Source: Thiomicrospira sp. WB1 (GTDB taxonomy: Bacteria; Pseudomonadota; Gammaproteobacteria; Thiomicrospirales; Thiomicrospiraceae). From it: DNA of 64,000 nt. Shown piece after piece: positions 34,761-45,528 of this stretch. Position numbers and translations under genes: made by a program. The first letter of the stretch is position 1. Each line of letters opens with the position of its first letter. The DNA lies in the NCBI RefSeq assembly GCF_001507535.1, contig NZ_LQBN01000003.1, forward strand, positions 186,001 to 250,000, in the 5' to 3' direction. The notes under the pieces were generated by a model. It did no database searches. It worked only from the letters and a program-made list of their open reading frames with translations, and had not been told where the DNA came from.

Positions 34761-36173
34761 ATGGCAAATCAAACCTTTGATGCGGGTGTAAAAGACTATC
34801 AACTCACTTACTGGGTGCCAGATTACGTGCCTTTGGACACGGATCTGCTGGCCTGTTTTAAAGTCGTTCCACAGGAAGGTGTTCCTCGTGAAGAAGCTGC
34901 AGCAGCTGTTGCCGCGGAATCTTCTACCGGTACCTGGACCACGGTCTGGACTGACCTGTTGACTGACATGGAATATTACAAAGGCCGTGCGTATCGAATT
35001 GAAGACGTACCGGGTGATAAAGAAGCGTTCTACGCGTTCATCGCTTACCCGCTGGACCTGTTTGAAGAAGGGTCGGTTGTAAACGTTCTGACTTCATTGG
35101 TTGGTAACGTATTCGGCTTTAAGGCCGTTCGTTCTCTGCGTCTGGAAGACTTGCGTTTCCCAGTTGCCTTTATCAAGACATGCATGGGGCCACCAAGTGG
35201 TATCCAGGTTGAGCGTGATAAGCTGAACAAGTACGGCCGTCCAATGTTGGGTGCAACCATCAAGCCAAAACTGGGTCTGTCTGCGAAAAACTATGGCCGT
35301 GCGGTTTATGAGTGTTTGCGCGGTGGTTTGGACTTGACCAAAGATGATGAGAACGTGAACTCTCAGCCATTCATGCGCTGGCAGAACCGTTTTGAATTTG
35401 TCGCGGAAGCTGTGCATAAAGCGACCGATGAGACTGGTGAGCGTAAAGGTCACTATCTTAACGTAACAGCGGCGGATTCTGAGCAAATGATCGAGCGTGC
35501 TGAATTTGCGAAAGAGCTGGGCATGCCAATCATCATGCACGATTTCTTGACAGCTGGTTTCACTGCCAACACGTCACTGGCAAAGTGGTGTCGTAACAAC
35601 GGCGTACTGCTGCACATTCACCGTGCCATGCACGCGGTAATTGACCGTAACCCACGTCACGGTATCCACTTCCGTGTACTGGCAAAATGTCTGCGTCTGT
35701 CAGGCGGTGATCACCTGCACACTGGTACCGTTGTAGGTAAGCTGGAAGGTGACCGTGCGTCAACGCTTGGTTTTGTTGACCAGTTGCGTGAAGCGTTTGT
35801 ACCAGAAGATCGTTCACGTGGTGTTTTCTTCGATCAGGACTGGGGTTCAATGCCTGGTGTGTTCGCAGTTGCATCCGGTGGTATCCACGTATGGCACATG
35901 CCTGCGCTGGTAAACATTTTTGGTGACGATTCCGTTCTGCAGTTTGGTGGCGGTACTCAGGGTCACCCAGGTGGTAACGCGGCAGGTGCTGCGGCAAACC
36001 GTGTTGCGCTGGAAGCGTGTGTGAAAGCACGTAACGAAGGGCGTGACCTGGAGCGTGAAGGTGGTGACATTCTGCGTGATGCCGCACGTCACAGCAAGGA
36101 ACTGGCAACAGCGCTGGAAACTTGGAAAGAAATCAAGTTTGAATTCGACACTGTTGACAAGTTGGATGCTTAA
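34761..36173 (+). CDS. cbbL: RuBisCO large subunit, form IA
   Basis: Fixes CO2 onto ribulose 1,5-bisphosphate. 470 residues of the carboxysome-associated form IA type. Active-site lysine loop [13 protein letters not shown], carbamylated K194 in [28 protein letters not shown] and loop 6 [11 protein letters not shown] are all present. First gene of the cso operon, followed after 45 bases by cbbS. Codon use is strongly biased, as in a highly expressed gene. CsoS2 N-terminal repeats are expected to capture the holoenzyme. Confidence 0.99.
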
Positions 36174-36218
36174 TCCCTTGCTAAGCCTAAATTGATTGAA
36201 TTTTAAAGGAGCAGAATT

Positions 36219-36563
36219 ATGTCAGCGTTACACACCGATGATTATCGTACTCAGTACACTCTGGAAACTTTCTCGTTTTTGCCAGATCTGACAGCCGATG
36301 AAATCTTTGACCAGGTTGTTTACATCATCAACCAGGGATGGACACCATCCATTGAGCATGATAAGCCTGAGAACGCCGCGGCGCACTACTGGGGTATGTG
36401 GAAATTGCCTTTCTTTGGCATGCGCGACCCAATGGAAGTATTGGCTGAAATTGAAGCCTGTCGTCAAGCTTACCCAGACCACTTGATTCGTCTGGTTGGT
36501 TATGACAACTACACTCAGTCTCAAGGTCATAACTTTGTGGTATATCGCCCACGAGGCATGTAA
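36219..36563 (+). CDS. cbbS: RuBisCO small subunit, form IA
   Basis: 114 residues, typical of form IA Cbb[23 protein letters not shown], the [14 protein letters not shown] segment and the C-terminal [23 protein letters not shown] are diagnostic. Preceded by an AAAGGAG site. It joins eight large subunits in the L8S8 enzyme and lies directly upstream of csoS2. Confidence 0.99.
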
Positions 36564-36603
36564 GCGACCTTTCAGGCCAATTTAATGAATACAGGAGGCC
36601 AAT

Positions 36604-38730
36604 ATGAGTGAACAGGCAATTGTCTCCAGTGGTCGGGAAAAGGCGCTGGCACGTCGCAAAGCCTTGATTCAGGGGAAAGCTGGTGCGGCATCACGTCCGT
36701 CACAAGCGGCCCCGGCTCAAGCTTCAACCAGCGATGTGTCGCCTTCCAAAGTGCAAGCGACACGACCAAAAGCCAGCGTGGCACCGTCATCGGTTCAGCC
36801 AAATGGCAGTGGTCGTGAAGCCTCCAAGGCACGCCGTGATGCATTGATCAAGGGGAAATCCCGCGGTCAGGCGTCACAAAGCGGCCAAGAACTGGAAGTA
36901 GATAACATGCAAGCAACCTGGCACCCAAAAGCCAAAGCGAAGGCCATGGCCAAGCAAGCTGAACAAACGCTTCAGACGAAGCAGGTCGAGGCATCGGATG
37001 ATGCCGGGACTGCCAAGCCGGATTTGGGCGCAATGCGTCCAAGTGCCAGCAAGGATTCTCGTCAGAAGCGGGTGGCGCAGAAGGCGGAAGCCTCTCAACA
37101 GCCACAAGGCCGTTTGATGTCGAAAGCGTATCGTCAGGCTCGCTCAAATGGCAAGAGCGCGGAGCAGGCATTCCGTAATAAAAGTGGTCATTCTGCTGCC
37201 AAGGCACGTATGGCCAACCCGGATGCCAGCAGTCGTGAGATTGCCAAGCAAGTGCGAGCTGAACGTTGCTCAAAAGGTAAGACAGCTTGTAAGGCCAGTC
37301 CCAGGCCTCGCTCAGAGCAGCCAATGAAAAGCAAGGAAGCTCCGAGTAAGGTTGGCGAATCCAAGACCGGTGGTGGGCAGACCATGACCGGCTCTCAGAC
37401 TGGTCGGTCTGACTCGGTAACCGGCGTTGAGTCAGGTTACTGTCAGAAAGTCAGTGGCACGGAATACCTCGGAACCGAGGAGTTCGGTCAGTACTGTCAG
37501 ACAGAATACAGCTCGGCACCTGCAAAAGTCAGTCGCTCACAGACCACGCGTGGTCAGAGCGTGAGCGGTAGCTCCATCGGTTTCGGCCAGGGAGTGACCG
37601 GTAATGAATCAGGCGTTTGTGCTGGGGTAACCGGTACCGATTATCTGCCTGCGGATCAGAGCGATCTGTTCTGCAACACAGGATCGGCGGCAAAACCTCA
37701 GGCCCCGCAGAAGGTGACACAGTCGACGACTGCCAAAGGCACGTCGTTGACTGGCGTAAATGTTTCAGCGGTAAAGCCACGAGACGAAGACCGAGCGCGT
37801 CCAACTGTAACCGGTGAGGAAACGGGTTACTGTGCCAATGTAACGGGCACGGGTTATCAGGACTCCGGCAGTGTGCGTGAAGTCTGTCAGATGGAACCGC
37901 CTGCCGCCGCCAACAAAGTCATGTATGGCCAGACCAGTAAAGGTCAGTCAGTCAGTGGTGATCGTGCCGGTGGCAGTTCAGACATGACGGGAGCGGAAGC
38001 AGGTCATTGTTCAGCTGTGACTGGAACGCCCTACATGGACGCTCTGGAAACACGCAAAACCTGCTCGACCGATGATCAAGCTCAGATGGCTCAGCGCCAA
38101 CCTCAGCGTTCCGCGTTCGGCGGGCATGCTGTGAGTGGTGTGCAGCCAGGACCTGCCGGTGTAACAGGTGGCCAGAAAGGCGCTTGTCAGACCGTTTCAG
38201 GTACGGCATATCAGGGCCATGACCAAACGGTTGCACAGTGTGATGTCACAGCCGTTGCCGAGCCGGGTGATCCTGACTTTCCAACTGTGATGCAAGGCAA
38301 TGCCGTTGCGGTTGGTCAGTCTGAATCGGCACCAAGCCAGATTACGGGTGCGTTTTCGAGTGCTCAGGGTAAAGTGACCGGTGATAATGAGAACACGACG
38401 TCGCGGACCATTCGTCCAAACCGATCGCCTTCTCAGTCACCCGCGGCGCGTAACGCGGTTGCTTCCTCCGTTACTGGCGAAGGCAGCGATCAGGGATCAT
38501 CCATTACCGGAGATTCCTGGGGCCGAGGTCCTCGCGTATCGGGCACGGAAGGTCCATGGGCTAACAACCGTAACGCATCCATTCGGGGCGATCAGTCGCA
38601 GGCATTTAACCATGCTGCCGATTATCGCAAAACCATGGGGCCGGAAGTGGACAACAGTCCGATTACCGGATCCAGCGGTAATACTGAAACCGGTGCGACC
38701 GTCACCCTGTCTGGTGGGGCGAGAGCTTAA
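36604..38730 (+). CDS. csoS2: Carboxysome scaffold protein CsoS2
   Basis: 708-residue, mostly disordered scaffold linking RuBisCO to the shell. N-terminal region: basic helical repeats of the type REKALARRKALIQGK and SKARRDALIKGK, plus SKAYRQARSNGKSAEQ, which bind RuBisCO. Middle region (about 255-560): at least five units of the type VTG-x3-G-x-C-x2-VTGTxY, alternating with SxTxxGQSVSG units. C-terminal region: shell-anchoring ITGDSWGRGPRVSGTEG and a Gly-rich end. In Halothiobacillus a short form arises by frameshifting; I found no canonical slippery heptamer in the matching part here. Confidence 0.97.
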   Translation: MSEQAIVSSGREKALARRKALIQGKAGAASRPSQAAPAQASTSDVSPSKVQATRPKASVAPSSVQPNGSGREASKARRDALIKGKSRGQASQSGQELEVDNMQATWHPKAKAKAMAKQAEQTLQTKQVEASDDAGTAKPDLGAMRPSASKDSRQKRVAQKAEASQQPQGRLMSKAYRQARSNGKSAEQAFRNKSGHSAAKARMANPDASSREIAKQVRAERCSKGKTACKASPRPRSEQPMKSKEAPSKVGESKTGGGQTMTGSQTGRSDSVTGVESGYCQKVSGTEYLGTEEFGQYCQTEYSSAPAKVSRSQTTRGQSVSGSSIGFGQGVTGNESGVCAGVTGTDYLPADQSDLFCNTGSAAKPQAPQKVTQSTTAKGTSLTGVNVSAVKPRDEDRARPTVTGEETGYCANVTGTGYQDSGSVREVCQMEPPAAANKVMYGQTSKGQSVSGDRAGGSSDMTGAEAGHCSAVTGTPYMDALETRKTCSTDDQAQMAQRQPQRSAFGGHAVSGVQPGPAGVTGGQKGACQTVSGTAYQGHDQTVAQCDVTAVAEPGDPDFPTVMQGNAVAVGQSESAPSQITGAFSSAQGKVTGDNENTTSRTIRPNRSPSQSPAARNAVASSVTGEGSDQGSSITGDSWGRGPRVSGTEGPWANNRNASIRGDQSQAFNHAADYRKTMGPEVDNSPITGSSGNTETGATVTLSGGARA

Positions 38731-38761
38731 CCAGTAAGGAACGTATGGGAGTTAAGTCAGT

Positions 38762-40306
38762 ATGAATCCGGCCAGAGTCAGACAGAAATCAATGTTTTGG
38801 CGCAAGGTGGCAGCGCCGGTAAAAACCGGCGCAACACCGGGTCAGATGCAGAAATCGTCCGTAACCTCTGTGCATTCAGCACCGATGGGGCGGAGTGATC
38901 ATGCTTTGGTAAATACTCGTCGTAATCAGCTATTAAGAGATTACGAGCTAAATACCAAGGCAGGTTTTGATGACCTGGAAGGGATTCTGAAGCGTGTGGC
39001 CAGCTGGCAGAATGAAGAGGATTTTGTGGTCAAAGCGCAGGCTTTGGTCCAGTCCGAATTTGGCTGGCAGTGGCCGGAATCGTTATTGACTGATGCTTGG
39101 AAAACAGGCCTCAACGTGAAAGCGTTGTATGCCTACGGGATCTTTAAACAATTTGAACGTCTTTCGCAGGATTTTTATCAGCTGAATCCATTGCAGGACG
39201 AGCAGGAAGCGGTGGCCAAGCAAGCGTTTATGGCGGCCGGTTTTCATGCCGTCGGGGTTGCACCGTGTGCAGATGGACGCCTGGCACATACCGTTAGTTA
39301 TGTGTTGCGTCTGCCTCACAACATGGTTCGCCGCAAGGCGCATGCGGGTGTGATGTTTGATGTGAGTGAAAGTGTCCGTCACTGGGTATTTGTTGAGCAC
39401 GATCGTTTCCGGGAGGGAATTCCCAATCCGGCGACCGAGTCAACACGTTACTTGAAGATTGCTGTTTATCACTACTCAGACAAAGACCCTAACCACCAAG
39501 GTTGTGCAGCGCATGGCAGTGATGAGAAGAAAGCGGCGGCCGCGGCGCTTCAAAGGCTAGAAGATTTTCAGCAAGCCATTGAAAACCGCTTCGGTTGTGG
39601 TTCTCGAGTGGAACCGATGTTGCTCGGGTTGAACACCGATAATGACAGCCTGAAAGTGCATTTGCCGAATCAGGAAGGTCAGTTGTGTTTGGCTCGCTAC
39701 ATCAAAACAGAGACATTGTTTGATCAAACCGCAGGCTGGCCAGCGGATCAAGCCAGAGCCTATTTAAAAGAAGCCATGCAACAACTTGCGGAGCAGGCTG
39801 GAAGTTCTGCTCCAAATGATTCCATGCAGGATTTGTTGGCTTGGTTGATAGAGCAGAATTTTTCTCAGATTGCGTACGTTCGACAGTATGAGAAAGGGTT
39901 GTATGCCGACATCGGCCATGCAGAACGCTTTATCGGGCTGGGTAATGGTTTCGAAGAGGTTCAGCTCAGAAATCTGAGTTATTACGGGTTTCTGGATACA
40001 TTGGAAGAAGGCGCACCGGATGTTGACGTTGGGATCAAGATTTTTAAAGGTCTGAACGTTCATCGCGGGTTGCCTGCTCCTGTGATTATCCGTTGTGATT
40101 ATGACGGACGCGTCCCGGGATCCCGTACACGGGCATTGGAAAAAGCTCGCCGGATTGAACAGGCGCTGCATCAACGATACAGCGAATTGTCCGAAAAAGG
40201 TGAGTTGACCAGTTTATGCACGTTACGGGATCATCAACGGGCGGTCCCTTGTGAAATGGTTTCCATGCGGCTCTCACCCACTTGGGCAGAGCAGTACGAG
40301 GTGTGA
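38762..40306 (+). CDS. csoSCA: Carboxysomal carbonic anhydrase CsoSCA (CsoS3)
   Basis: 514 residues. Dehydrates bicarbonate to CO2 inside the carboxysome. The zinc ligands expected for the epsilon class appear in APCADGRLAHTV (Cys) and in HYSDKDPNHQGCAAHG (His and Cys). A disordered N-terminus of about 50 residues probably binds RuBisCO or CsoS2, as in H. neapolitanus. It starts 31 bases after csoS2 and is followed by csoS4A after one base. Confidence 0.97.
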   Translation: MNPARVRQKSMFWRKVAAPVKTGATPGQMQKSSVTSVHSAPMGRSDHALVNTRRNQLLRDYELNTKAGFDDLEGILKRVASWQNEEDFVVKAQALVQSEFGWQWPESLLTDAWKTGLNVKALYAYGIFKQFERLSQDFYQLNPLQDEQEAVAKQAFMAAGFHAVGVAPCADGRLAHTVSYVLRLPHNMVRRKAHAGVMFDVSESVRHWVFVEHDRFREGIPNPATESTRYLKIAVYHYSDKDPNHQGCAAHGSDEKKAAAAALQRLEDFQQAIENRFGCGSRVEPMLLGLNTDNDSLKVHLPNQEGQLCLARYIKTETLFDQTAGWPADQARAYLKEAMQQLAEQAGSSAPNDSMQDLLAWLIEQNFSQIAYVRQYEKGLYADIGHAERFIGLGNGFEEVQLRNLSYYGFLDTLEEGAPDVDVGIKIFKGLNVHRGLPAPVIIRCDYDGRVPGSRTRALEKARRIEQALHQRYSELSEKGELTSLCTLRDHQRAVPCEMVSMRLSPTWAEQYEV

Positions 40307-40307
40307 C

Positions 40308-40562
40308 ATGAAGATATTTAAAGTGATCAAAACTTTGGTCTCAACCAACCGGATTGCCACACTGGAACACAAACCACTGCTGGTGGTCACCGACAAGGAA
40401 GGGGGGACGCCTCAAGTCGCCGTTGACCCTGTCGGTTGCACACCAGGGGACTGGGTATTGTGTGTCGGTTCTTCTGCCGCTCGAGATGCCAGTGGGGTTA
40501 AAGGTTACCCCAGTGATCTGACGATTGTGGGCATTATCGATAAATGGGAGCCAGAAGCATGA
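40308..40562 (+). CDS. csoS4A: Carboxysome shell vertex protein CsoS4A
   Basis: 84-residue BMV/EutN-CcmL family pentamer that closes shell vertices. MKIFKVIKTLVSTNRIATLEHKPLLVV at the start and GCTPGDWVLCVGSSAARDA are family signatures. The stop codon overlaps the csoS4B start (ATGA), giving coupled translation. Confidence 0.96.
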   Translation: MKIFKVIKTLVSTNRIATLEHKPLLVVTDKEGGTPQVAVDPVGCTPGDWVLCVGSSAARDASGVKGYPSDLTIVGIIDKWEPEA

Positions 40563-40819
40563 TGATTCATCAGGTTAAGCAGACCTTGGTGATGACCCGG
40601 CGACTGGAAGGGCTGGGGCAACTGTCCATCAAGGTGTTGCACAGCTTAAACGGCGAAACGGTTGTGGCGATGGACCCGATTGGGGTCAAGCCTGGAGACT
40701 GGATTTTTACCATCGCCAATTCGGCTGCCAGAACGGCAGCGGGCGATGACAAATTATTAACAGATTTAACGATTGCCGGCATTATTGACCGGACATCGTG
40801 CGATTTTTTAAGTGCCTAG
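40559..40819 (+). CDS. csoS4B: Carboxysome shell vertex protein CsoS4B
   Basis: 86-residue second pentamer of the EutN/CcmL family, paralogous to CsoS4A: MMIHQVKQTLVMTRRLEGLG, MDPIGVKPGDWIFTIANSAARTAAG. ATG 40559 overlaps the csoS4A stop codon. In other alpha-carboxysomes 4A and 4B share vertex capping with unequal abundance. Confidence 0.95.
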   Translation: MMIHQVKQTLVMTRRLEGLGQLSIKVLHSLNGETVVAMDPIGVKPGDWIFTIANSAARTAAGDDKLLTDLTIAGIIDRTSCDFLSA

Positions 40820-40860
40820 ACAGGTTTTTGTAAGAGTGTAAAGAGTAGTAGGAGGTATTT

Positions 40861-41157
40861 ATGTCTGATAACTACGGTATTGCGTTGGGAATGATTGAAA
40901 CACGTGGTCTGGTGCCTGCCATCGAAGCAGCGGATGCCATGACCAAAGCGTCTGAAGTACGTTTGGTGAGTCGTGATTTCGTCGGCGGCGGTTATGTTAC
41001 TGTGATGGTTCGCGGTGAAACCGGTGCCGTTAACGCAGCGGTTCGTGCCGGTGCAGACGCATGTGAGCGTGTAGGTGACGGTCTGGTAGCCGCACACATC
41101 ATCGCGCGTCCTCACAAAGAAGTTGAGCCAGTCTTGGCGACGATTGAAAACAAATAA
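40861..41157 (+). CDS. csoS1: Carboxysome shell hexamer CsoS1 (copy 1)
   Basis: 98-residue single BMC-domain protein forming hexameric shell facets. GIALGMIETRGLVPAIEAAD and the pore region VSRDFVGGGYVTV are present. Strong AGGAGG site. It differs from copies 2 and 3 by S31 for A31 and a few end residues, yet the DNA differs at many synonymous positions. A/B/C labels cannot be assigned with certainty; the order suggests the csoS1C position. Confidence 0.97.
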   Translation: MSDNYGIALGMIETRGLVPAIEAADAMTKASEVRLVSRDFVGGGYVTVMVRGETGAVNAAVRAGADACERVGDGLVAAHIIARPHKEVEPVLATIENK

Positions 41158-41168
41158 TTCATTATTTT

Positions 41169-41190
41169 GCCGTCGTTAAGACGGCTTTTA
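41169..41190 (+). terminator. Hairpin between csoS1 copies 1 and 2
   Basis: gccgtc-gttaa-gacggc followed by TTTT. A weak attenuator or an mRNA stability element that may set the ratio of shell proteins. Confidence 0.5.
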
Positions 41191-41204
41191 CAGGAGAAAT
41201 GACA

Positions 41205-41498
41205 ATGAGTACTGAATATGGAATTGCCCTGGGCATGATTGAAACACGTGGTTTGGTTCCAGCGATCGAAGCCGCTGATGCGATGACCAAGGCCGCTGAA
41301 GTTCGCTTGGTAAGCCGTGACTTCGTTGGTGGTGGCTATGTAACAGTCATGGTTCGTGGTGAGACAGGGGCTGTCAACGCTGCGGTTCGTGCTGGTGCGG
41401 ACGCTTGTGAACGTGTCGGTGACGGTCTGGTTGCTGCGCACATCATCGCACGCCCACATAAAGAAGTTGAGCCAGTACTGGCGACCATCGAAAAGTAA
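41205..41498 (+). CDS. csoS1: Carboxysome shell hexamer CsoS1 (copy 2)
   Basis: 97 residues from ATG 41205, chosen because the AGGAGA site is 7 bases ahead; ATG 41199 would leave only one base. Same BMC domain as copy 1, identical from residue 5 to 91 except at position 31. Central gene of the three-gene array, probably the csoS1A position. Confidence 0.97.
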   Translation: MSTEYGIALGMIETRGLVPAIEAADAMTKAAEVRLVSRDFVGGGYVTVMVRGETGAVNAAVRAGADACERVGDGLVAAHIIARPHKEVEPVLATIEK

Positions 41499-41548
41499 TT
41501 GATTCATAGGTAATGAAGGGCGACAGCCATTAAATTAGGAGAAACACC

Positions 41549-41836
41549 ATGAGCACGGAATATGGAATTGCTTTGGGCATGATTGAAACGCGTGGTCTGG
41601 TACCAGCGATTGAAGCGGCCGATGCCATGACTAAGGCGGCGGAAGTTCGCCTGGTCAGCCGCGATTTTGTTGGCGGTGGCTATGTCACCGTGATGGTTCG
41701 CGGCGAAACCGGTGCAGTGAACGCTGCAGTTCGCGCCGGCGCAGACGCTTGCGAACGCGTTGGTGATGGTTTAGTGGCGGCCCACATTATCGCGCGTCCA
41801 CACAAAGAGGTGGAGCCGGTATTGACCACCAAGTGA
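41549..41836 (+). CDS. csoS1: Carboxysome shell hexamer CsoS1 (copy 3)
   Basis: 95 residues with the same BMC core as copy 2 and a shorter tail (VLTTK instead of VLATIEK). AGGAGA site present. Probably the csoS1B position of the array, though the extended C-terminus seen on some CsoS1B proteins is absent. Confidence 0.97.
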   Translation: MSTEYGIALGMIETRGLVPAIEAADAMTKAAEVRLVSRDFVGGGYVTVMVRGETGAVNAAVRAGADACERVGDGLVAAHIIARPHKEVEPVLTTK

Positions 41837-41897: not shown

Positions 41898-42452
41898 ATG
41901 AGAGCGTTCAGTCGAACCCCCGGTAGCGTTATGCCCGGGATCGGACAGCATCCGAGATATCGGCAGAATCAGTCAATGGATCCACGTATCCTAGGGTTTC
42001 TGGGTCGGGCCATGAGTCTGGAGTTCAGTGCAGGGCAGCATTATATGGCGCAGTCTTCACTTGCCAAGCAACGTCAGGAATCACAGTTCGCTGATGACTT
42101 CCTGGCCTTGGCGAATGAAGAGTTTCGTCATGCTTCCATGCTAACGGATCGTTTGGTTGCGCACGGCGCGCTTCCGTCCGGTTCGGTTCTCCAGCCTGCC
42201 ATGCCGGCTGTGGATGTGGTGGAATCATTGCAAACTTGTGCTGAGCACGAGGCAGGCCTGATTGATCTGTATGCACAGGCACAGGCTTGGTGCGCCAATG
42301 TAGGGGCTCAGGATGATCTGGCTTTGTTTACTCAACTGTTACAGGAAGAGCAGGCTCAGCTTCAGCGCATTCAGCAATGGTTGGCGGCCTATCAGCCTCC
42401 CATGCAACAGCCCATGCAAGCCATGAACCAGAACCCCAGGAGCTTTGTATGA
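41898..42452 (+). CDS. Carboxysome-operon ferritin-like (bacterioferritin domain) protein
   Basis: 184 residues. After a disordered start of about 25 residues comes a four-helix ferritin-like domain: LGRAMSLEFSAGQHYMAQSSLAKQ, ANEEFRHASMLTDRLVAHGALP (ExxH iron ligands), CAEHEAGLIDLYAQAQ. The Gln/Met/Pro-rich tail QPPMQQPMQAM is disordered. Such genes sit in many cso operons; whether the protein stores iron or protects against oxygen is not known. Its stop overlaps the acRAF start. Confidence 0.85.
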   Translation: MRAFSRTPGSVMPGIGQHPRYRQNQSMDPRILGFLGRAMSLEFSAGQHYMAQSSLAKQRQESQFADDFLALANEEFRHASMLTDRLVAHGALPSGSVLQPAMPAVDVVESLQTCAEHEAGLIDLYAQAQAWCANVGAQDDLALFTQLLQEEQAQLQRIQQWLAAYQPPMQQPMQAMNQNPRSFV

Positions 42453-42718
42453 CCCTTTCCGACAACAGCCCATGGAAAGTAAAGCAACGTCCCGCGAGTA
42501 TGGAAGCCAAGTTTATTTTTGACTCCTATGAGCAGTTGCGCACTTTCCTGGATGATGTCGCGGAACAGGCCGAAGCCCTGTCGCATCATCCCAATGTCAG
42601 TTTTGGCCGGGATTATGCGTCTCTGGTGATCTATTCACAGGACGGCGAGTTGACTGACCTGGATTACCAATTGGCGGAGCGTATCGAAGCCGGTTTTCAA
42701 AAAGTCCAACAAGGATAA
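42449..42718 (+). CDS. acRAF, RuBisCO assembly factor (pterin dehydratase-like fold)
   Basis: 89 residues from ATG 42449, overlapping the previous stop codon (ATGA). The fold is that of pterin-4a-carbinolamine dehydratase (KFIFDSYEQLRTFLDDVAEQAEALSHHP ... ELTDLDYQLAERIEAGF), keeping HHP but in the acRAF context. Alpha-carboxysomal RuBisCO assembly factor assists holoenzyme formation. Enzymatic dehydratase activity is not expected in this branch. Confidence 0.88.
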   Translation: MTLSDNSPWKVKQRPASMEAKFIFDSYEQLRTFLDDVAEQAEALSHHPNVSFGRDYASLVIYSQDGELTDLDYQLAERIEAGFQKVQQG

Positions 42719-42729
42719 GGAGAACGAGG

Positions 42730-42990
42730 ATGGCGCAGGCAAACAAAACAGATGCGACGAATCAGAAACCATCTCAGCCGCAAAAAACGCCGAATCAATC
42801 GACGGCTTCCAAGGCAGTAAAGGCGTCAAGCACGCCCAAGCCGACAACCAGAAAAGCACCTGCCAAAAGCAGTCGCTCAAGCGTGGGATCAGCTTCTAAA
42901 GAAGCTTCGAAGTCCACTACGGCCCAGCAGCCTGAATCGGCGGCAACGGCCACAGTGATGACCACACAACCACGTGTCTGGCCAGATTAA
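42730..42990 (+). CDS. Small disordered carboxysome-operon protein, McdB-like candidate
   Basis: 86 residues, almost wholly Lys, Ser, Thr, Ala, Gln and Pro (NQKPSQPQKTPNQSTASKA ... KAPAKSSRSSVGSAS), with no hydrophobic core. The only aromatic residue is the Trp of the C-terminal RVWPD. Alpha-type McdB carboxysome-positioning proteins are small, disordered and end with an invariant Trp; in Halothiobacillus McdA-McdB follow acRAF. The place, size and end fit, but no ParA-like McdA lies in the window. AAGGAGAAC site upstream. Last gene before the operon terminator. Confidence 0.6.
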   Translation: MAQANKTDATNQKPSQPQKTPNQSTASKAVKASSTPKPTTRKAPAKSSRSSVGSASKEASKSTTAQQPESAATATVMTTQPRVWPD

Positions 42991-43016: not shown

Positions 43017-43045
43017 GGCGCTGATTTAATCAGCGCCTTTTTTTT
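43017..43045 (+). terminator. Terminator of the carboxysome operon
   Basis: Stem ggcgctga / tcagcgcc followed by eight T; ends the transcript that starts at cbbL. Confidence 0.9.
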
Positions 43046-43195: not shown

Positions 43196-44212
43196 ATGGG
43201 CTTAGATAGTTTGTTAATACCGGCAGTCTTGTTCTTTCTGCTGGGGGTTATCGCTCAGCTAGTTAATTCGGATTTGAAGTTTCCAGAAGGCATGTCAAAG
43301 GGGATGTCCCTTTATCTGCTGATGGCCATTGGTCTTAAAGGCGGGGCGGAATTAGCTAACTCCGATCTGTTTGTGGCCATGAATGCAATTTTCTGGGCCA
43401 TCGTGCTCGGTTTTGTGATTCCGATCATTGGTTATGCGTTGTTGCGATTCCGCAACAAAATTGACCCGATGAACGCGGCTGCGATCACCGCTCATTACGG
43501 CTCGGTCAGTGCCGGGACATTTTTGACGGCGATTGCCTTTCTTGAAGCGTCCGGTGTGACCCATGAAAGTTATCCAATCATTATGATGGTAATGATGGAA
43601 TCTCCGGCGATTATCATTGGTCTGGTGTTGGCCGCTATGGCTCGTAAACGCTTGGCTGCTGACAAAATCGGTGCAGATGGTACCGCCGCGATGGGGCAGG
43701 CTGAAGCGCCCAAGACTGATTGGGGCCCCTTGCTCAAAGATGCCTTTACCAACGGCAGTGTACTTTTGTTGCTTGGGGCTTTGATCATCGGTGCCATTGT
43801 GCCGCCTGAGGCCATGAAAACCCTGTACCCATTTACCAAAGAAATTTTCATGGGTGTGTTGTGTCTGTTCCTGCTTGAAATGGGGATGGTTGCAGCCAAA
43901 CGTCTGGACAGCTTCAAGAAAGTCGGCGGAACCCTCATTGCCTTTGGTATTATTATGCCTTTGATTGGCGGTTTCATCGGTGTGTTTGTCGGTCACAGCA
44001 TGTTGGGCTTCAGTGTCGGTGGTACCTTATTGGTTGCGATACTCAGTGCCAGTGCGTCCTACATCGCTGTGCCACCAGTGATGCGTTTTGGCGTACCAGA
44101 GGCGAACCCGTCTTATTACTTGGCGTTGTCGCTTGGGATTACCTTTCCCTTCAACGTTGTGGTCGGGATTCCGCTCTTTTATCAAGTCAGTCAATGGTAT
44201 GTCGGGGGTTAA
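43196..44212 (+). CDS. sbtA: SbtA-type sodium-dependent bicarbonate permease
   Basis: 338-residue inner-membrane protein with ten hydrophobic segments in two inverted halves. The opening LIPAVLFFLLGVIAQLVNSDLKFPEGMSKGMSLYLLMAIGLKGG and the central ITAHYGSVSAGTF motif are SbtA signatures, repeated in the second half as SASASYIAVPPVMR. It supplies cytoplasmic bicarbonate for CsoSCA. It has its own terminator-separated transcript with the SbtB-like gene 9 bases downstream and cbbR. Confidence 0.93.
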   Translation: MGLDSLLIPAVLFFLLGVIAQLVNSDLKFPEGMSKGMSLYLLMAIGLKGGAELANSDLFVAMNAIFWAIVLGFVIPIIGYALLRFRNKIDPMNAAAITAHYGSVSAGTFLTAIAFLEASGVTHESYPIIMMVMMESPAIIIGLVLAAMARKRLAADKIGADGTAAMGQAEAPKTDWGPLLKDAFTNGSVLLLLGALIIGAIVPPEAMKTLYPFTKEIFMGVLCLFLLEMGMVAAKRLDSFKKVGGTLIAFGIIMPLIGGFIGVFVGHSMLGFSVGGTLLVAILSASASYIAVPPVMRFGVPEANPSYYLALSLGITFPFNVVVGIPLFYQVSQWYVGG

Positions 44213-44221
44213 GGGGGTAAT

Positions 44222-44533
44222 ATGACGATTCCAACCTGTTCTGAAAAAATGTTGCAAGTGATTGCGTCCACCGGCCTGGAAAGACGGATTAAACGAATCC
44301 TGAGCGAAACCGGGGTCAGTGGGTATACCCTGTTTGATGTCCGTGGGGATGGGGAAACCGGCTTTCACAGCTCTGAAATTGAAGGCGATGGCAATGTCAT
44401 GTTTATGATTATCCTGCCGGAGTCAAAAATTGAGCCAGTCTTTGAAAAGCTTGAAGTGTTTGAAAAGCAGGGCCATCACCTGATGGTGTTTGCTTCGGAT
44501 GTGTCAGTCATGACTCGCTCAAAATTTGCCTGA
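44222..44533 (+). CDS. SbtB-like PII-family regulator
   Basis: 103-residue PII-like protein: MLQVIASTGLERRIKRILSETGVSGYTLFDVRGDGE (T-loop region) and VMFMIILPESKIEPVFEKLEVF. SbtB proteins gate SbtA in response to adenine nucleotides. The C-terminal redox CGPxxC segment of many SbtB proteins is absent. Gene order sbtA-sbtB supports the function. Confidence 0.85.
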   Translation: MTIPTCSEKMLQVIASTGLERRIKRILSETGVSGYTLFDVRGDGETGFHSSEIEGDGNVMFMIILPESKIEPVFEKLEVFEKQGHHLMVFASDVSVMTRSKFA

Positions 44534-44571
44534 AGCCATTGCAGCAGGCTAAATGATTCAGGGAGGCCGTT

Positions 44572-45528
44572 ATGGCTCAAGAAGTACCCGATTATGCCCA
44601 GCATCATCGTTTGATGAGGCATACATCGCTAAGGCAGCTACAGATTTTTGAGTCCGTCGCGCGCAACCTGAGTTTTACCAAGGCAGCAGAAGAGCTGCAT
44701 TTAACTCAGCCGACGGTTTCCGCTCAGATAAAAGGCCTGTCAGAAGCGGTCGAAATGCCGCTTTATGAACAGATCGGGCGAAGCATTTATTTGACCGATG
44801 TGGGACGAGAGGTTGCTCTGAGTTGTCGTGCCATTCTCAATACGTTTGCCAATCTGGAAATGACGCTGGACGACTTTCGAGGCAAAACTCGGGGTCGCCT
44901 GCGGGTAGCAGTGGTCACCACGGCCAAATATTTTGCCCCCCTTGCTTTGGGTGAATTTTGTAAGGATTACCCGGAAATTGACATCGAGCTGTCGGTGGCA
45001 AACCGGGAAAACCTCTACAAGCGCATTGAAAATAACCTTGATGACCTCTACATCGTCGGACAGGTGCCGACCACTCATCTGGATCTGGAAATTTATCCGT
45101 TTGCCCCCAACCCTTTGGTGCCCATCGCGCATCGGGAGCATCCGTTGGTGGGGAAAAGCCGCATTTCCTTGAAACGTCTGGCCAAAGAACCCTTTATCAT
45201 GCGTGAACCGGGGTCTGGGATCCGGTCGGCGATTGAAGGGCGTTTTTCACAGCAGAAGCTCAGCTTGAACGAACGTTTGGTGCTGGACAGTAATGAGGCG
45301 CTCAAGCACGCCGTAGCCGGCGGACTGGGGGTCTCAGTGGTGTCTCAGCATGCCCTCAATCTTGAAAGTGAGGATGGGCCGCTGGCGATACTGGATGTAG
45401 AAGGCTTTCCAATTGAGAAAGAATGGAACCTTGTCTACCCGCGGGGCAAGTCCATGTCGATCATCAGTGAAGCGTTTTTTGACTTTCTGCGTCAGAAAGG
45501 CACCAGTTATCTGAGATTGAAGCCTTAA
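44572..45528 (+). CDS. cbbR: LysR-type regulator, CbbR-like
   Basis: 318 residues. N-terminal helix-turn-helix (LQIFESVARNLSFTKAAEELHLTQPTVSAQIKGLSE) and a C-terminal substrate-binding domain (ELSVANRENLYKRIENNLDDLYIVGQ). Placed directly after sbtA-sbtB and 10 kb from cbbL, it is the obvious candidate controller of both operons. Metabolite effectors such as RuBP or 2-phosphoglycolate are known for the family. GGGAGG ribosome site ahead of ATG 44572. Confidence 0.88.
   Translation: MAQEVPDYAQHHRLMRHTSLRQLQIFESVARNLSFTKAAEELHLTQPTVSAQIKGLSEAVEMPLYEQIGRSIYLTDVGREVALSCRAILNTFANLEMTLDDFRGKTRGRLRVAVVTTAKYFAPLALGEFCKDYPEIDIELSVANRENLYKRIENNLDDLYIVGQVPTTHLDLEIYPFAPNPLVPIAHREHPLVGKSRISLKRLAKEPFIMREPGSGIRSAIEGRFSQQKLSLNERLVLDSNEALKHAVAGGLGVSVVSQHALNLESEDGPLAILDVEGFPIEKEWNLVYPRGKSMSIISEAFFDFLRQKGTSYLRLKP

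Follow-up and report, generated by a model that had tools for sequence, protein, structure and literature searches.

The cso operon of Thiomicrospira sp. WB1 raises the question of what an McdB does at the end of a carboxysome operon when no McdA is encoded beside it. The gene in question, here called mcdB2, lies in a stretch of 64,000 nucleotides (the window, G000:C3:186001-250000), and its product has 86 residues, a single tryptophan and the C-terminal residues MTTQPRVWPD (Table 1). A sequence-only reading had described the product as an orphan McdB-like protein directly behind acRAF, and the open reading frame (ORF) was recovered as described, with 11 bp between the acRAF stop and the mcdB2 start. 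The McdB-like identity is supported, in that the C-terminus conforms to the consensus published for alpha-McdB, R(V/I)WPD with an invariant WPD (PMC11321042). The reported lack of a ParA or McdA in the window was likewise confirmed, with no match to the ParA/MinD family (PF13614, PF01656) inside the window and all of those in the genome outside of it. The orphan status held for the window and failed for the genome, which carries an mcdA-mcdB1 pair at L007.

Table 1. Features of the cso operon and its 3' end (positions in the window) and the basis of each assignment
Feature	Position	Strand	Basis
cso operon core: cbbL, cbbS, csoS2, csoSCA, csoS4A/B, three csoS1 copies	34761..41836	+	ORFs
ferritin/bacterioferritin-like gene, cso operon	41898..42452	+	ORF and profile match
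acRAF (Rubisco assembly factor, pterin dehydratase-like)	42449..42718	+	ORF; Pterin_4a match, 5.9e-11
Shine-Dalgarno-like AGGAG upstream of mcdB2	42718..42722	+	read from sequence
mcdB2 (probable alpha-McdB type 2, 86 aa, predicted disordered, C-terminal RVWPD)	42730..42990	+	ORF, tail, position, AlphaFold2 model
RVWPD tail codons (described in the literature as the motif by which alpha-McdB docks on carboxysomes)	42973..42987	+	sequence; motif from PMC11321042
terminator-like hairpin (9-bp stem) and T8 run directly 3' of mcdB2	43017..43045	+	read from sequence; similar hairpin behind the H. halophilus gene

From gene order and the terminator-like site, mcdB2 looks like the final gene of the cso operon, because it follows closely on acRAF and is itself followed by a terminator-like site (43017-43037) and then by sbtA, which starts at 43196. 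Within the operon core, csoSCA and csoS2 were identified by profile matches, and the names cbbL, cbbS, csoS4A/B and csoS1 are assumed from sequence and gene order. The three csoS1 genes (40861-41836) are arranged in tandem and are almost identical. Immediately past the terminator-like site, an SbtA-type bicarbonate transporter and a PII-like protein are encoded (43196-45528), and the next gene is presumably of the LysR type.

The identification of McdB2 rests on the five-residue tail, the position and the composition, because no Pfam or NCBIfam model recognizes the protein. The sequence-only reading had held that a lack of similarity in profile searches would speak against an McdB; this is literally the outcome, but it is a weak test for disordered McdBs, which share an average identity of 14.8% (PMC11321042). 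The composition of McdB2 is biased (ILMFVWY account for 8%) and its net charge is +9 overall. An AlphaFold2 model built from an alignment of 12 rows has neither helix nor strand listed (pTM 0.13, mean pLDDT 64), which is consistent with a protein that is almost wholly disordered and without a coiled coil, the low confidence and shallow alignment being agreement and no proof. The counterpart at the same place in Hydrogenovibrio halophilus (G006) is identical at 32 of 86 aligned residues with one frame-keeping gap of two residues, and it keeps RVWPD and a similar hairpin and T-run behind the gene. Between the same genomes acRAF is 82% and CsoSCA 84% identical, a comparison suggesting that the body of McdB2 drifts fast while the tail does not.

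The genome-wide search for McdA and ParA genes that the sequence-only reading had proposed located mcdA (KGGTGKTT) at L007:5681-6313, overlapping by 4 bp with mcdB1 (L007:6310-6600), the product of which has 96 residues and an RVWPD end. Positioning by a distant ParA or some different mechanism had been offered as alternatives; a distant McdA does exist, but it has an McdB of its own, and that McdB, unlike the window protein, carries a KLxxSxRRAK element near its N-terminus. Over the first 25 residues, McdB1 has a net charge of +5 and McdB2, which has no arginine there, one of +2, such that the charge is reduced, not absent. The pattern R-[VIM]-W-P-D-stop matched the 2.28-Mb genome twice, at the window ORF and directly behind the ParA-type gene (C1:825582, the mcdB1 locus), and the reversed pattern matched nowhere; the RVWPD-stop of the window is not a chance match. 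A broader pattern gave a third match, at C3:25488, that ends in TGG and not in a stop. Over 62 genomes the broader pattern does have some chance matches, so the pattern alone is insufficient and the argument is carried by position.

This arrangement is not new and is already in print as alpha-McdB type 2. The class originates from MacCready et al. 2021 (Mol Microbiol) and, as reviewed in PMC8262871, comprises an additional alpha-mcdB within the cso operon that has no neighboring mcdA and no charged N-terminus, with mcdAB located at a distance. A 2026 review (PMC12918739) words the location otherwise, as removed from the cso locus, and describes the function of type 2 as a topic of ongoing study, and an McdA-independent role has been suggested for the orphan McdBs of numerous species (PMC8406218). 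The defining features of an alpha-McdB, an R(V/I)WPD tail with an invariant tryptophan and a place in or near the cso operon, are present in the window ORF, as are those of type 2, the absence of an adjacent mcdA and an mcdA-mcdB pair elsewhere in the genome. The window protein also shares with type 2 the place as second alpha-mcdB in the cso operon, the predicted disorder and the C-terminal WPD, its N-terminus is weakly charged where type 2 is described as lacking the charge, and no difference was found that would remove it from the class. With type 1 (H. neapolitanus McdB and the protein encoded at L007:6310-6600) it shares the RVWPD tail, a similar length and a Lys/Ala/Thr/Ser/Pro-rich composition, but it lies behind acRAF and not directly downstream of an overlapping mcdA, and it lacks KLxxSxRRAK and with it the putative McdA-contact N-terminus of that type. 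Beta-McdB of Synechococcus elongatus likewise has a C-terminal tryptophan and a disordered, biased sequence (PMC8262871, PMC11321042), but the window protein is modeled without a folded or coiled-coil core, and the C-terminal motif of beta-McdB is degenerate, with Asp enrichment and a Trp, not WPD (PMC11321042). In the collection of papers searched, none on McdB in Thiomicrospira or Hydrogenovibrio was found.

The distribution of such genes was surveyed in 62 genomes of the order, in which CsoS2 was present in 47, CsoSCA in 37 and an McdA match (E<=1e-20) in 34. The broader RVWPD pattern matched 50 of the 62 genomes, or 48 once matches ending in TGG (G000, G006, G017, G019, G022 and G026) were removed, and a stop-ending match occurred in 46 of the 47 genomes with CsoS2 versus 2 of the 15 without (Fisher p 2e-10). 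As for these two, the match in G036 has only 5 open codons in front of it and is no mcdB as assembled, and that in G044 shares its contig with further cso genes (a cso fragment). The sole CsoS2 genome lacking a match, G017, has a fetched cso contig that stops shortly past acRAF. Stop-ending matches preceded by only 5-11 open codons were dropped (G036; G023 at C1:1227403, with Ser in place of Arg; G040 on C44). ORFs ending in RxWPD were then taken from the stretches around the matches and sorted by their upstream neighbor, which yielded 37 McdA-linked copies in 37 genomes and 37 acRAF/cso-linked copies in 35 genomes, with both types seen in 25. In the comparison of the VWPD end among related cso operons, also proposed from the sequence, an RVWPD ORF recurs behind acRAF in these 35 genomes.

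Several entries in the survey should be read with their circumstances. McdA-linked copies in G029, G030, G041 and G048 end in RRWPD or RTWPD and escape the RVWPD pattern, so a genome without a further RVWPD match may still encode an McdB1 elsewhere. The mcdB1 of G033 is broken by a run of N and stands outside the 37, the McdA of G028 (C11) was not fetched, and that of G039 lies at a contig end. The cso-linked ORF of G029 was placed by position, its acRAF having no score, and that of G039, with no ATG in place, is represented by its final 40 residues, so that the length and charge given for it are affected. In G015 the McdA match is only 29% identical and RVWPD is absent. G028 (L155/L156) and G030 (L159/L160) each have two cso ends, with identical or almost identical mcdB2 genes at both, and one close McdA match elsewhere.

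The two groups of copies differ at both termini. KLxxSxR[RQ]AK occurs near the N-terminus of 28 of the 37 McdA-linked copies and of none of the 37 cso-linked copies. The nine McdA-linked copies without the exact element belong to genus g6 (eight, starting MVT[R/K]R) and to G001 (a related variant), and the absence of the element alone therefore does not rule out contact with McdA. The median net charge of the first 25 residues is +4 in McdA-linked and +1 in cso-linked copies (Mann-Whitney p 4e-6, uncorrected for relatedness), with overlapping ranges of 0 to +8 and -6 to +6, respectively. Four type 2 McdBs, those of L124 (G025), L125 (G031), L146 (G023) and L188 (G049), differ from the others in an acidic N-terminus that contains a further Trp (E...E[ST]W). 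At the other end, HIA[D/E] occurs in the last 22 residues of 33 of the 37 cso-linked copies versus none of the McdA-linked copies, and by eye these form a C-terminal block, HIA[D/E]x[IVM]xx[FLM]xxxRVWPD (e.g., L123, L124, L125, L128, L131 and L135). This block is possibly a second contact beside the docking tail. The literature passages covered here make no mention of this segment. The cso-linked copies without it are those of the window, G006, G016 and G057, and the window McdB2 (and that of G006) may behave unlike the others.

The placement of mcdAB bears on where a second copy is found. Seven genomes in which mcdAB lies beside the cso genes (G001, G020, G054, G055, G056, G058 and G059) have no second copy behind acRAF, as expected from the published type 2 rule. 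A greater distance is not in itself sufficient for a second copy, as three g6 genomes (G052, G053 and G060) have mcdAB ~38-60 kb from CsoS2 and a single RVWPD match; conversely, G033 has mcdAB ~3 kb from the operon end and a second copy nonetheless. In the g6 genomes G052-G056 and G058-G060 (L111-L118), CsoS2 is present without a CsoSCA match, and another carbonic anhydrase may serve there. The g6 pair itself is divergent, with an McdA only ~30% identical to that of Thiomicrospira sp. WB1 and an McdB starting MVT[R/K]R. The idea that the CsoSCA-less g6 genomes, G001 and G020 carry McdAB without carboxysomes was ruled out, with CsoS2 present in 10 of 10 and cso genes within the fetched mcdAB region in 7 of these 10.

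Three genomes that are 99-100% complete (G022, G025 and G031) keep the cso-linked copy and have no recognizable McdA. Their best McdA-like matches (E<=0.01) are to parts of ParA-family proteins of 258-264 aa at 39-46 bits, whereas the McdA of their relatives scores at least 320 bits. McdA identity within the order falls to 30%, and a very divergent McdA could have been missed by the search. In G022 and, in rearranged form, in G031, longer loci show the surroundings that mcdAB has in a relative but no McdA among them; mcdAB was likely, though not provenly, lost rather than never gained. In a tree built on CsoSCA from 36 genomes, to which G038 and the CsoSCA-less genomes do not belong, the three require three changes, all of them forced by well-supported branches. 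That tree may differ from the species tree, in view of the contrast between G031 and G049, in which cso DNA is ~93% identical over 6.8 kb and the shared pieces around mcdAB only 74-82% (L188 versus L125), suggesting either stronger constraint or operon transfer. Two further candidates for McdA-free genomes, G016 and G061, were withdrawn because each has an unpaired ParA of 206-208 aa that is 29-36% identical to the g6 McdAs, which is as close as those are to the McdA of Thiomicrospira sp. WB1 (30%). These ParAs (G061, L196:3801-4421; G016, L197:3701-4327) are 62% identical to each other, adjoin a gene for a 393- or 454-aa protein that is not McdB, and could each be a distant McdA. The fragmented genomes G044 (93% complete, 210 contigs) and G057 (83%) were left out of the McdA-free count.

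On balance, it is probable that the window ORF is a type 2 alpha-McdB that docks on the carboxysome via RVWPD and acts as an McdA-independent adaptor in condensation, spacing or the tuning of McdB1. Docking of McdB2 is predicted from the shared tail; in H. neapolitanus McdB, the last 10 residues suffice for carboxysome association (PMC11321042). From the missing N-terminal element, no or weak direct contact with McdA is predicted, since in H. neapolitanus the N-terminal 20 residues of McdB are reported to be both necessary and sufficient for that interaction (PMC12204374). Without the basic element of McdB1, McdB2 would not drive the McdA ratchet itself, and positioning would be done by McdB1 with the distant McdA. 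McdB2 would instead coat carboxysomes and aid their condensation or spacing or, alternatively, adjust the number of docking sites left free for McdB1. Condensate formation by McdB2 is a plausible mechanism, and condensation or spacing on the surface or the sharing of docking sites with McdB1 would be the most economical readings. The retention of mcdB2 without a recognizable McdA in G022, G025 and G031 argues for such an McdA-independent job. The same three genomes weigh against a second proposal, in which a distant McdA drives McdB2 through a cryptic N-terminal contact and both McdBs, redundant or specialized, position carboxysomes, as does the absence of the N-terminal element from all cso-linked copies. 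This proposal, which we consider quite unlikely, draws on the existence of a distant McdA and of 25 genomes with both types, on the g6 McdBs that adjoin mcdA without KL..RRAK, and on G016 and G061, where mcdB2 occurs with an unpaired ParA that is possibly a distant McdA. In H. neapolitanus, N-terminal residues other than the basic ones also help to contact McdA (PMC12204374), and weak contact by McdB2 is possible given its overall charge (+9), its N-terminal +2 and the overlapping charge ranges.

The tuning of McdB1 can also be stated as a narrower form of the preferred reading that overlaps with it, in which McdB2, made together with the shell, fills RVWPD-docking sites and titrates the pull of McdB1 and McdA on carboxysomes. 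The identical tail on both McdBs of one genome, the position of mcdB2 at the operon end and the separation of positioning from partitioning by interaction strength in H. neapolitanus (PMC12204374) are in its favor, but the three genomes without a recognizable McdA would have nothing to tune and still keep mcdB2, and it is only tentatively entertained. That the ORF is functionless, of low complexity and ends in RVWPD by accident could draw on the poorly conserved body, the lack of a family model and the chance matches of the DNA pattern in other genomes, but it is very improbable for an ORF that recurs 37 times behind acRAF in 35 genomes and that has a ribosome-binding-like sequence and a terminator-like site.

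Finally, type 2 McdB may be a component of assembly or of the surface coat that belongs to the cso operon, works without McdA and has no role in positioning, although this seems unlikely. If true, the RVWPD tail would be a general carboxysome-docking peptide, and McdB1 would combine this tail with a distinct N-terminus that activates McdA. The comparative set, with two McdBs per cell that differ at the N-terminus and share the docking tail, and with three genomes in which the cso-linked copy alone is recognizable, makes the McdA-independent action of McdB on carboxysomes directly testable.
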